From positions 2,521,574-2,585,573 of the forward strand of contig NZ_CP025803.1 of the NCBI RefSeq assembly GCF_003352065.1: 64,000 nt of DNA. The letters are read 5' to 3'. Below the pieces are notes generated by a model. That model was not told the origin of the DNA and made no database searches. It worked only from the letters and a program-made list of their open reading frames with translations. This DNA comes from Sulfitobacter sp. SK011 (lineage in GTDB: Bacteria > Pseudomonadota > Alphaproteobacteria > Rhodobacterales > Rhodobacteraceae). Positions 59,372-62,281 of the stretch are shown in pieces. Position 1 is the stretch's first letter, and every line of letters starts with the position of its first letter. Position numbers and translations under genes: made by a program.

Positions 59372-59695
59372 ATGAACCTGCCCCCCAAAGTGACCAGCCG
59401 AGCCTTTGAACGCCTTGCCGAAATCGGTGCTGCCGGTGATGGCAAAGCTTTGCGTGTCGCGGTCGAGGGCGGCGGCTGTTCCGGTTTTCAATATGAAATC
59501 ACTATGGACGAGCCAAAAGACGATGATCTTATCCTTGAAGGATCCGGGCAAAAGGTTGTGGTCGACGCCGTATCCCTGCCCTTTCTCGCGAATGCGGTGA
59601 TTGATTTCTCAGAAGAGCTTATCGGCGCGCGCTTTGTCATCGAAAACCCCAACGCAACATCGGCTTGCGGGTGTGGAACATCCTTTTCGATGTAA
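59372..59695 (+). CDS. A-type iron-sulfur cluster carrier (IscA/ErpA family)
   Basis: 107 residues. The HesB/IscA fold is clear: [14 protein letters not shown] at the N-terminus, [13 protein letters not shown] with Cys36, and the C-terminal [10 protein letters not shown] with Cys99 and Cys101. These three cysteines hold a [2Fe-2S] or [4Fe-4S] cluster that is passed to target enzymes. It could be ErpA or IscA; the window has no isc or suf operon to decide. A GGAG site lies 8 bases before the ATG. Divergent from dgt. Confidence 0.93.
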
Positions 59696-59775: not shown

Positions 59776-60837
59776 TCAAACGCTGCCCGCCCGTGCAAAT
59801 CCTTCAAAAAACGCATCAAACTTGTCGCTGGACTGCTCTGCATTTGCCAGCACCTCATGGCCATCCGGCCCAAGGTACGGGGCCACATGGCCACGCATGT
59901 GGTGCCAATCCCCGCTGCGGGTCTGGCCCAACTCAAACATCCGTTCTGACATGGTGCGCAGGGCACCGACGGGGATGGATGGGCGCGCAAACCGAACCGG
60001 CCCTTCTGGCACTTCAGCGGCAAAGGCGGGCGCTCCGGCCACCTGTGATGCCCAGCCAGTCACCAGATATTCGTGGTAGGGATCGTTCAAACCACTGCCC
60101 GCATCCGCGACCATCACGCAGCCCCGGTGGGCCGCAAGCACCGCGTCGTCCCAAATCGGGCTTGGCACATGGCCTGCGAAACGCAAGGCGGCACAGACCT
60201 CAGCCAGCAGATCGATGTTCTGATCGAGATAGGCCAGCAGCCCCGCAAATTCGAGGCTCAGCAACGCCTGTGCTGAAATCTCAGGGTCGCGTTTGCCATA
60301 GCCGGACAGATAGAAAACGATATGGGTCAGCTCATAGGCGGCTTTTTTGTTGGGCATCGAAAAGGTACCTGGCCGATTGATAAACCGGTGCAACCGCGCA
60401 TCCAACGCCGCATCCGGCACCCTTGCAGCTCCGCGCCGCGCCAACAGCCGCCGTGCCTCGGCACGTTGCAAATCTGACAATTCCGCTTCTGCAAGCCCCT
60501 GATCAGCGGCCCAGTCACAAAGAGCGGCCCCTTTGTCGCCGCCGCTCAGCCCCAGATCTTCCAGGTCGAGGCAAATGGAAATAAGAAACCGATAATATTG
60601 CGGGAAAAACCGCAGCCGGTCTTCGATCTGTCCGTAAAACGTATCGAAAGGGGCCAAAGCGTCAGGCCCAAGTTCCGCCCCTGTGGCGCACAGAATGCCC
60701 AAAAGTTCAGCGTTTTCCTTGAGCCAGAACACATCATCCGCCAGACGGCGATGATCGGCAAATGCGCGGATCAGCCGGGTCTGGCGGGTGGCAAGCGTAC
60801 TGCGCTCGGGACGGTGGAGTGTGATGACATTGGACAT
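59776..60837 (-). CDS. Unknown helical protein paired with a repeat peptide gene
   Basis: 353 residues, no signal peptide and no membrane segment. The composition predicts an all-alpha protein. Landmarks are FFPQYYRFLISICLDLEDLG (about 77-96), KKAAYELTHIVFYLSGYGKR (164-183), AYLDQNIDLLAEVCAALRFA (202-221) and DPYHEYLVTGW (252-262). The YELTHIVFYLSGYG pattern recalls helical-toroid proteins of unknown role found near modified-peptide or natural-product genes, but I cannot name the family. The start at 60837 follows AGAGAGG. It is 90 bases downstream of the repeat peptide gene, behind an 11-bp hairpin, and converges on the IscA-type gene. A role in processing or binding the peptide is inferred from position only. 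Confidence 0.7.
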   Translation of the reverse strand: MSNVITLHRPERSTLATRQTRLIRAFADHRRLADDVFWLKENAELLGILCATGAELGPDALAPFDTFYGQIEDRLRFFPQYYRFLISICLDLEDLGLSGGDKGAALCDWAADQGLAEAELSDLQRAEARRLLARRGAARVPDAALDARLHRFINRPGTFSMPNKKAAYELTHIVFYLSGYGKRDPEISAQALLSLEFAGLLAYLDQNIDLLAEVCAALRFAGHVPSPIWDDAVLAAHRGCVMVADAGSGLNDPYHEYLVTGWASQVAGAPAFAAEVPEGPVRFARPSIPVGALRTMSERMFELGQTRSGDWHHMRGHVAPYLGPDGHEVLANAEQSSDKFDAFFEGFARAGSV

Positions 60838-60878: not shown

Positions 60879-60908
60879 AAAGACCCGGCAATTGCCCGCC
60901 GGGTCTTT
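60879..60908 (-). terminator. Hairpin between the repeat peptide gene and its partner
   Basis: AAAGACCCGGC (60879-60889) pairs perfectly with GCCGGGTCTTT (60898-60908) around an 8-base loop. On the reverse strand it begins 19 bases past the peptide stop codon and ends with only a short T-run (TTTCC). Such an imperfect terminator would let some transcription continue into the partner gene, giving more peptide than partner. Confidence 0.6.
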
Positions 60909-60927: not shown

Positions 60928-61146
60928 TCAGCAGCTTGTTGTGAACATTTCCACTTTATCGCCGCCGCCTGCAGAGCTTTCGGACGTGATGCAGCTGGTG
61001 GTGAACATATCAACGCCATCACCGGCCATCATATCGGTGGTGTTCAAAGCAAGCCCTGTTGTAAACATTTCGGTGCCAGCGCCATTCATGATGCTGGTCT
61101 CGTCAGCCATCGGAACAAAGCTCTGGATGTGTGCAAGTGCTGTCAT
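60928..61146 (-). CDS. Repeat peptide with three MFTT motifs (possible modified-peptide precursor)
   Basis: 72 residues. A leader-like part (MTALAHIQSFVPMADETSIM) is followed by three repeats centred on MFTT at residues 27-30, 47-50 and 67-70, an exact 20-residue period. Each is preceded by Gly-x-x-x-[Asp/Glu]. The second and third continue with Ser-Cys, the first with Gly; the third Cys is the last residue. The DNA of the repeats differs at many third codon positions, so the peptide sequence has been kept by selection. ATG 61146 has AGAGGA 7 bases upstream; longer readings (61152, 61164) are possible. No membrane segment is seen. The layout resembles precursors of ribosomally made modified peptides, but no known modifying enzyme is adjacent. 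Confidence 0.72.
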   Translation of the reverse strand: MTALAHIQSFVPMADETSIMNGAGTEMFTTGLALNTTDMMAGDGVDMFTTSCITSESSAGGGDKVEMFTTSC

Positions 61147-61498
61147 TTTCATTTCCTCTTTCATTGGTTTTTCAGGTTTAGGTTGCAGTGCCAAAACGCT
61201 TACCCGTTTAACGCGATCTGCCAATGAGATTTTTTCGACCAGCCGCGGAACTCACACCTTTATCCCCAAGCACCGTCCCGACAGTCAGTTCCACCCACGC
61301 GGGAAACCTGTGATCTCCACAGGCGAAAAAATTCTTATCCACACGTCTGATTTTCGGATTTTTCGAGGGTCTCCAAACCCACACTTCTCCTTATACGGGA
61401 ATTTGGTTTTGGAGAATCACCTCAGGCGGTTGCACCTTGCACTTGCCCCATGCCGTGCTTTGCGCGATAGCAATGGGCGGCAGCGCAGGGACAGTCAG
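61147..61498. promoter_or_regulatory. Divergent regulatory region with DnaA-box-like sites
   Basis: This 352-base region separates the repeat peptide gene from xth and holds no gene. It contains TTATCCACA (61335-61343), a perfect DnaA box; TTATCCCCA (61260-61268), one mismatch; and ATCTCCACA (61313-61321), two mismatches, all in the same orientation within 84 bases. A/T-rich blocks lie between them. A possible -35/-10 pair for the peptide gene (TTGGCA, TAAGCG on the reverse strand, 16-base spacer) lies near 61189-61216. Confidence 0.5.
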
Positions 61499-62281
61499 AT
61501 GAAAATCGCAACCTTCAACATCAACGGTATCAAAGCCCGGATCGAGGCCCTGCCCAACTGGCTTGATGACGCACAACCGGATGTCGTGCTGCTGCAAGAG
61601 ATCAAATCGGTAGACGAGAATTTCCCCTCGGAAATTTTCGAAGACCGGGGATACAACGTCGAAACCCACGGCCAAAAGTCTTTCAACGGCGTCGCGATCC
61701 TGTCCAAACACCCGTTGGAGGATGTCACACGCGGCTTGCCCGGTGACGACACCGACGAACAGGCGCGCTGGATTGAGGCGACAGTGGTGGGCGAAAAGGA
61801 AGCGTTGCGCATTTGCGGGCTTTACCTGCCCAACGGCAATCCGGCCCCGGGGCCAAAGTATGACTATAAACTGGCGTGGATGGCGCGATTACAGGCCCGC
61901 GCCGAAGCCCTTTTGGCTAAAGAAATGCCATTTCTGATGGCGGGAGACTATAACATCATTCCACAGGCGGAAGACGCGGCGACCCCTGATGCGTGGCGTG
62001 ATGACGCCCTCTTTCGCCCGCAATCGCGGGCTGCATGGCGCAAGCTGTTGAACCTTGGCCTGACAGAAGCGTTTCGTGCCCGCACCCAGGGACCGGGCCA
62101 CTACAGCTTTTGGGACTATCAGGCCGGAGCTTGGAATCGCAACAACGGCATTCGGATTGACCATTTCCTGCTGTCGCCGCGATGTGCCGATATGTTGCGT
62201 GACTGCCAGATCGACAAGGACGTGCGCGGACATGACAAACCATCCGACCACGTGCCGGTTTGGGTTGACCTCGACTTTTAG
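61499..62281 (+). CDS. xthA: Exodeoxyribonuclease III
   Basis: 260 residues. XthA is a 3'-5' exonuclease and AP endonuclease in base-excision repair. The endonuclease/exonuclease/phosphatase fold is complete: IATFNINGIKARIEALPNWL, VVLLQEIKSVDENFP with the metal-binding Glu, YLPNGNPAPGPKYDYKLAW, LMAGDYNIIPQ with Asp and Asn, and GIRIDHFLLS and SDHVPVWVDL with the final Asp-His pair. The ATG at 61499 opens with MKIATFN as in relatives; the frame remains open far upstream only by chance. An HNH gene converges on it. Confidence 0.95.
   Translation: MKIATFNINGIKARIEALPNWLDDAQPDVVLLQEIKSVDENFPSEIFEDRGYNVETHGQKSFNGVAILSKHPLEDVTRGLPGDDTDEQARWIEATVVGEKEALRICGLYLPNGNPAPGPKYDYKLAWMARLQARAEALLAKEMPFLMAGDYNIIPQAEDAATPDAWRDDALFRPQSRAAWRKLLNLGLTEAFRARTQGPGHYSFWDYQAGAWNRNNGIRIDHFLLSPRCADMLRDCQIDKDVRGHDKPSDHVPVWVDLDF

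Follow-up and report, generated by a model that had tools for sequence, protein, structure and literature searches.

Cyanobactins, graspetides and dikaritins are RiPPs with multi-core precursors that carry many near-identical core units. The precursors linked to the DUF6902 family, which are the subject of this work, likewise contain many near-identical cores, but they differ from those systems in that there is a single candidate enzyme, Phe is conserved and each core carries a four-residue code. With respect to enzymes, two described systems are relevant. MslH is a lasso-peptide epimerase that works by two His/Asp pairs, according to PMC10406935. An epimerase of the DUF6895 family (PF21836) acting on a lasso peptide is reported in the title of Shi et al. 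(ACS Catal. 2026; cited in PMC13352647). With respect to gene arrangement, RRNPP propeptide-receptor pairs are two-gene systems in which, as in the precursor-DUF6902 pair, adjacent genes encode a small peptide and a helical protein (PMC10075063). RiPP genes reported for Sulfitobacter are of the DUF692, P450 and S9 peptidase types in PMC11278168. Searches of open PMC text on lasso epimerases, Roseobacter RiPPs, multicore precursors and epimerase repeats listed nothing on a pair of this precursor with DUF6902. In the repeat-peptide/DUF6902 cassette we probably have a modified-peptide system of a kind not described before.

The peptide gene P0002

The window, i.e. the whole 64,000-nucleotide stretch of Sulfitobacter sp. 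SK011 DNA that was analyzed, contains the following features of the cassette and its edges.

59372..59695, plus strand: flanking Fe-S_biosyn (ErpA-like) gene, one edge of the cassette site, with no EamA gene between it and the DUF6902 gene
59776..60837, minus strand: DUF6902 protein, 353 aa, candidate peptide-modifying enzyme of the DUF6895 superfamily (Pfam profiles)
60879..60908, minus strand: 13-pair hairpin, possible attenuator, between the P0002 and DUF6902 genes (folding of the spacer)
60928..61146, minus strand: P0002, multi-core precursor-like peptide, 72 aa (ORF 61146-60928, translated as MTALAHIQSFVPMADETSIMNGAGTEMFTTGLALNTTDMMAGDGVDMFTTSCITSESSAGGGDKVEMFTTSC; family in relatives)
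60931..60945, minus strand: core 3, FTTSC, the C-terminus of P0002 (repeat analysis and P0002 sequence)
60991..61005, minus strand: core 2, FTTSC (repeat analysis and P0002 sequence)
61051..61065, minus strand: core 1, FTTGL (repeat analysis and P0002 sequence)
61087..61146, minus strand: putative leader, residues 1-20 of P0002 (start residues of relatives)
61155..61158, minus strand: Shine-Dalgarno-like GAGG, 8 nt ahead of the P0002 ATG (sequence)
61499..62281, plus strand: flanking ExoIII-type gene, the other edge of the cassette site (Pfam and neighbor clustering)

The first-pass annotation of this DNA had described a 72-residue ORF with MFTT at residues 27, 47 and 67, written with different codons in each repeat. 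Translation bears this out, the three motifs being encoded by ATGTTTACAACA, ATGTTCACCACC and ATGTTCACAACA, respectively. Ser-Cys, which had been said to follow two of the motifs, follows the second and the third, the first being followed by Gly-Leu, and the third unit closes the protein, as had also been stated. When the P0002 protein was shuffled, at least two MFTT motifs appeared in 8 of 200,000 shuffles. The putative leader has Ala at residue 3 and His at residue 6.

P0002 had no match in the Pfam and NCBIfam peptide families. Among its relatives Herpes_UL35, CH, DBD_Tnp_Hermes, UBA_HYPK and perm_prefix_2 exceeded their cut-offs through summed repeats alone, and every Pfam or NCBIfam match having a stretch stayed below cut-off. 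DUF6749 may be a name for the repeat peptide. A search of open PMC text gave no paper on DUF6749 or DUF6902 and one on DUF6895.

The P0002 stop codon is separated by 90 bp from the start of the same-strand DUF6902 gene. The 93-nt spacer folded with -37.5 kcal/mol (z -2.34), and 2 of 200 shuffles were equally good; the hairpin was absent from the output of a fixed-pattern terminator scan. A survey of 115 spacers, with 60 shuffles each, was mixed: the median z was -1.6 and z was below -1.5 in 59. Several relatives have a different short GC-rich hairpin, e.g. GGGGCGTTCAGAGAACGCC, at the corresponding place.

Distribution and linkage to DUF6902

A search detected DUF6902 in 82 of the 295 genomes of the window's family. 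Relatives of P0002 were found by peptide search in 42 of the 295, all of which also hold DUF6902, and there were no matches in the 213 family genomes without it. P0002 thus has many relatives in the Rhodobacterales family genomes, where a search for homologues and for a conserved neighbor gene had been proposed. The neighbor gene was found as well: in the cross-genus set, the window counted, 79 of 81 genomes have a repeat ORF ahead of DUF6902 (the 81 loci are the window and 80 fetched neighborhoods; a genome with a 97-residue DUF6902 fragment was left out). The repeat ORF mostly ends 30-140 bp from DUF6902, with extremes of 11 bp in L140, 217 bp in L126 and 343 bp in L071. No repeat ORF was recognizable beside DUF6902 in L124 and in L141, the latter having the most divergent DUF6902 (26% identity). 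In the window's genus DUF6902 is present in 44 of 62 genomes, two of them already counted in the cross-genus set, and a repeat ORF precedes it in all 42 further genomes. The precursor of one of these, L189, is identical letter for letter to that of L002, a Sulfitobacter MAG.

The statement that no standard modification enzyme is adjacent needs amending, as the next gene on the same strand, DUF6902, also exceeds Pfam's cut-off for DUF6895. The proposed role as a precursor is backed by the homologues, the variable repeat number, the near-fixed period and the conserved neighbor gene; modification and cutting of the units are inferred, and the repeats may instead serve for binding, the other role considered in the first-pass annotation.

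Organization of the repeat units

The precursors contain 2-20 repeats, mostly 20-21 residues apart, and so vary in repeat number, one of the points that had been proposed for checking. Of the fixed 20-residue spacing named in the same proposal, a near-fixed period of 20-21 residues remains and an exact 20 throughout does not: among 523 repeats of 75 precursors 407 of 448 intervals were 20 or 21 residues, and intervals of 8, 13, 17 and 19 were also present. Similarly, a constant MFTT[SG] core proved too narrow a description: what stays constant is Phe together with a Gly at -6 from it, and positions +1 to +4 vary between genomes. In the same 75 precursors position -6, counted from the conserved Phe, is Gly in 96%, position 0 is Phe in 91% and +6 is Pro in 81%. 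Because the repeats of this set were selected for their resemblance to the majority core, a choice biased towards uniform cores, the core counts given below were redone with flanking anchors.

The protein ends exactly at +4 in 42 of 72 cross-genus precursors and within 6 residues in 24 more; 28 of 41 precursors of the window's genus terminate at +4. Starts were picked by a Shine-Dalgarno-like stretch alone, which gave a start in 61 of 78 cross-genus precursors. The putative leaders of these 61 have Ala at residue 3 in 48 cases and Lys at residue 6 in 46. The precursors of L068, L074, L079, L089 and L128 have extra cores at 8-residue spacing, e.g. FTSGLVQMFTSGL, between units of 20-21 residues.

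Core sequences within and between genomes

Outside the genus there were 77 precursors. Repeats were located from flanking residues only, which yielded 491 repeats in 70 precursors; the other seven had fewer than two anchors. The cores were identical within 62 of the 70 precursors by script and within 65 after inspection by eye, by which three of the eight non-uniform cases (L062, L065 and L089) were judged to be spurious anchors. Mixed cores remained in L088, L097, L104, L116 and L117. L138, a further precursor from outside the genus but not part of this set of 70, has eight cores, one of which deviates. For the 70 precursors identity at positions +1 to +4 was 0.98, 0.97, 0.97 and 0.97 within a precursor and 0.35, 0.71, 0.34 and 0.40 between genomes. 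At these positions 39-50% of codon pairs differed synonymously and 2-3% non-synonymously; at linker positions 65-71% of codon pairs differed non-synonymously.

Since the core codons differ synonymously while the residues are alike, recent duplication does not explain all of the repeats. The four core residues are kept alike within a genome by selection, and the codon and identity pattern at +1 to +4 is what one would expect if several copies of a single product were selected for. An expanding repeat that has no function and is maintained by slippage would account for the long near-identical arrays of some precursors, such as the 20 units of L063; it is very improbable given the low share of non-synonymous relative to synonymous differences between core codons and the near-complete linkage to DUF6902. 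A repeat arising by chance or slippage was rejected on the core codon pattern.

Judged from their sequences, the four residues after the conserved Phe behave as a code that is the same within a precursor and varies between genomes. The codes that follow the Phe-like residue include TSGS, SSGS, TSWS, VSWS, TNWC, TTSM, TCGL, ITSC and SPSC. On one FastTree tree of DUF6902 the majority code changed about 65 times; on this tree 43 of 114 inner branches are weak, majority cores stand on 113 of 117 rows and at least one core label (L124) is spurious. Duplicates and sequences with partial or uncertain ends (L126, L133, L139, L140 and L141) were omitted from the tree.

Of 42 precursors from the window's genus, 19 were uniform and 23 had mixed cores. 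This count covers 42 of 44 genomes, L183 being excluded for too few anchors and L189 as a duplicate of L002; L002 itself was left out of the count. In many of the 23 mixed precursors cores of the SGS/TGS/TGL type come first and those of the TTSC/TTSV/TTSA type last. The cores of the window are FTTGL, FTTSC and FTTSC, and L002 has FTTGL at the fully readable units. Precursors of the genus that carry the two core types in blocks, SGS/TGS and then TTSC/TTSV, include L164, L168, L170 and L181.

Relationship of DUF6902 to DUF6895

The window protein matched DUF6902 (PF21843) over residues 1-350 with 479.9 bits (cut-off 27; E 5.2e-144) and DUF6895 over residues 19-237 with 76.6 bits (cut-off 23.8). 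No other family, and in particular no TPR or DNA-binding family, was detected in the Pfam scan. Comparison of the two profiles aligned 141 columns with E 2.6e-9 and 21% identity, covering residues 81-224 only of DUF6902. Within this region Y168, H172, F175, G181, D209 and E213 are aligned and invariant in both alignments (33 and 6 sequences), so that a Y-x3-H and a D-x3-E motif are common to DUF6902 and to the family of the lasso-peptide epimerase reported in the title of Shi et al. A later Y-H pair lies outside the profile alignment and was matched to DUF6895 by eye: in DUF6902 H255 is invariant and the Tyr nearly so, and in DUF6895 the pair is invariant. This pattern of conserved residues is the predicted active site of DUF6902.

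MslH is a stand-alone epimerase acting at the C-terminus of its peptide, and since it uses His/Asp pairs the His/Asp/Glu set of DUF6902 is plausible for epimerase chemistry, the likeness being by analogy only (PMC10406935). MslH has a calcineurin-like fold with Ca(II) in that source, whereas the weak model of DUF6902 (pLDDT 43.9) is helical, and neither the DUF6902 nor the DUF6895 profile gave a PDB sequence match below E 0.2. Judging by the homology to DUF6895 and the title of Shi et al., the reaction of DUF6902 is probably epimerization. DUF6902 may do something else: it is a separate Pfam family, and the alignment with DUF6895 is confined to the central region given above. That it modifies the cores by a different reaction nevertheless seems rather improbable to us, as the sole described superfamily member found is, in that title, called an epimerase.

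The same data bear on a signal-receptor arrangement in which the repeats would be cut to unmodified short peptides and DUF6902 would be their intracellular receptor, as in RRNPP pairs. Such an arrangement is consistent with a small gene adjoining a helical protein (helical according to a poor prediction), with a short peptide at the C-terminus, with the frequent exporter and with the fast-changing code. Unlike RRNPP receptors, however, DUF6902 has no TPR or DNA-binding match and matches DUF6895, and H172, D209 and E213, common to the two families, suit an active site better. We regard a receptor role as unlikely and favor that of an enzyme.

Third gene and cassette site

A linked exporter is a frequent but not an obligatory part of RiPP loci. 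In 61 of 81 loci the gene after DUF6902, in the same orientation, encodes an EamA-type transporter; the two genes overlap by ATGA in 35, and all six such genes that were tested passed Pfam's EamA cut-off. The 20 loci without it include the window; L133 ends before the EamA position is visible. The gene was missing from each of the 31 genus loci whose sequence runs on for 1700 bases or more past the DUF6902 start, as it is from the window, and from all 24 ExoIII loci of genomes without DUF6902. EamA relatives elsewhere in the window's genome are distant (22-32% identical).

The linked transporter also bears on the possibility that the whole repeat protein is a scaffold offering many identical docking sites to DUF6902 or to another partner. 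A partner that forces the cores to match would explain their uniformity and the variable copy number with no need of a peptidase. The linkage to EamA argues against a scaffold, as do the separate blocks of two core types that many genomes of this genus have and the number of core changes on the DUF6902 tree, and we consider it improbable.

Clustering of the genes within about 5 kb on each side of the 81 loci, with some labels assigned by eye, gave ExoIII, ErpA, dGTPase and ArgS-like genes and EamA as recurrent neighbors. A divergent ExoIII gene is upstream in 75 of the 81 loci, and ErpA-like and dGTPase-like genes are present in 70 each. We also inspected 24 genomes without DUF6902, namely 16 of 18 in the genus and 8 of 213 others. 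The ErpA-like gene was no more than 1.35 kb from ExoIII in 22 of them and no more than 131 bp in 11; one locus begins at a contig end and one had no ErpA match. Four of these gaps exceed 600 bp, some contain other ORFs, and 11 gaps of 245-1347 bp beside ExoIII held no DUF6902 remnant better than E 0.12. Since the ExoIII and ErpA edges persist with and without DUF6902, the cassette is gained and lost at a single site. A phage or defence origin was rejected: neither P0002 nor DUF6902 matched anything in PHROGs or PADLOC, and a DUF6902 relative was found in no plasmid record and no viral contig.

Proposed function of the cassette

On balance we lean towards a cassette of the RiPP type whose cores would each be modified by DUF6902, probably through epimerization. 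This type is suggested by units of one code, a leader, a recognition stretch, a near-obligate neighbor whose superfamily includes a reported peptide epimerase, and a frequent exporter. The small gene would encode a leader and 2-20 units, each consisting of the recognition stretch Gly-[Asp/Glu]-x-[Val/Thr]-x-[Met/Leu/Ala]-Phe and a four-residue core, often followed by an Ala/Gly-Pro boundary and then by a free linker. DUF6902 would bind the repeated recognition stretch and modify every core, most likely by epimerization of an alpha carbon through its acid-base residues. Peptidases, none of which was found linked at the cassette loci, would then free several copies of one short peptide; for many genomes of the window's genus there would be two such peptides. 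Export would fall, in most other genera, to the EamA-type transporter whose gene comes right after DUF6902, and in the window's genus to a different transporter or to none. The peptide may have a role such as signalling or antagonism.

If this is true, more than a quarter of the sampled genomes (82 of 295) of a major marine family carry an unnoticed peptide system, and one composed of a single precursor and a single candidate enzyme would be simple enough for rebuilding in E. coli. The precursors constitute a natural library in which dozens of cores are joined to the same recognition stretch, so that the specificity of a new family of epimerases could be tested directly. Cores that are uniform within a precursor and different between genomes raise the question why the code is made to agree in the one case and to change in the other.

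DUF6895 loci in other groups

In nine loci of other groups a small ORF lies directly upstream of the DUF6895 gene. These are plasmids of Kitasatospora, Pseudalkalibacillus and Streptomyces and six proteobacterial contigs; G613 (L157) and the weak matches L152 and L153 are not part of the count. Eight of the nine small ORFs have in common, by eye, a hydrophobic aromatic stretch, e.g. AGYVLAWDKYVLVV or GPWFVLKEG, and two core-like stretches are present in those of L155, L156 and L211, L210 being less clear. DUF6895 genes thus resemble DUF6902 in standing after small, sometimes two-core, peptides, but the type of precursor differs, and the small ORFs with the aromatic stretch are apparently a second, rarer precursor type for the superfamily. 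No lasso gene was named among the annotated neighbors of the three plasmid loci. A small upstream ORF of the DUF6895 type was not seen in G242 (L159), and G646 (L158) proved to be a DUF6902 accompanied by repeats of its own and by an EamA-like gene. When three DUF6895 proteins of the same phylum, but of other families, were scored against DUF6902, they stayed below its cut-off.

A wider proposal, which we offer as tentative and somewhat doubtful, is that of a new modified-peptide class made by precursor, DUF6902 and often an EamA exporter: DUF6902 would set D-residues in a multi-copy tetrapeptide, a genome-specific tag that diversifies among marine Rhodobacterales in the manner of a pheromone or antagonist code, with two codes per precursor in many genomes of the window's genus, and DUF6895 in other phyla would be distant cousins with another type of precursor.

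The DUF6895 loci with a directly upstream small ORF include L160 (7708-9737), L161 (5398-6669), L162 (7329-9455), L154 (8506-9741), L155 (8452-10368), L156 (8769-10463), L209 and L211, and belong to Actinomycetota, Bacillota and Proteobacteria. The actinobacterial DUF6895 proteins of L160 and L162 are longer (577-584 aa), with a C-terminal part that has no Pfam match, and their genes lie near type I polyketide synthase genes on the plasmids.
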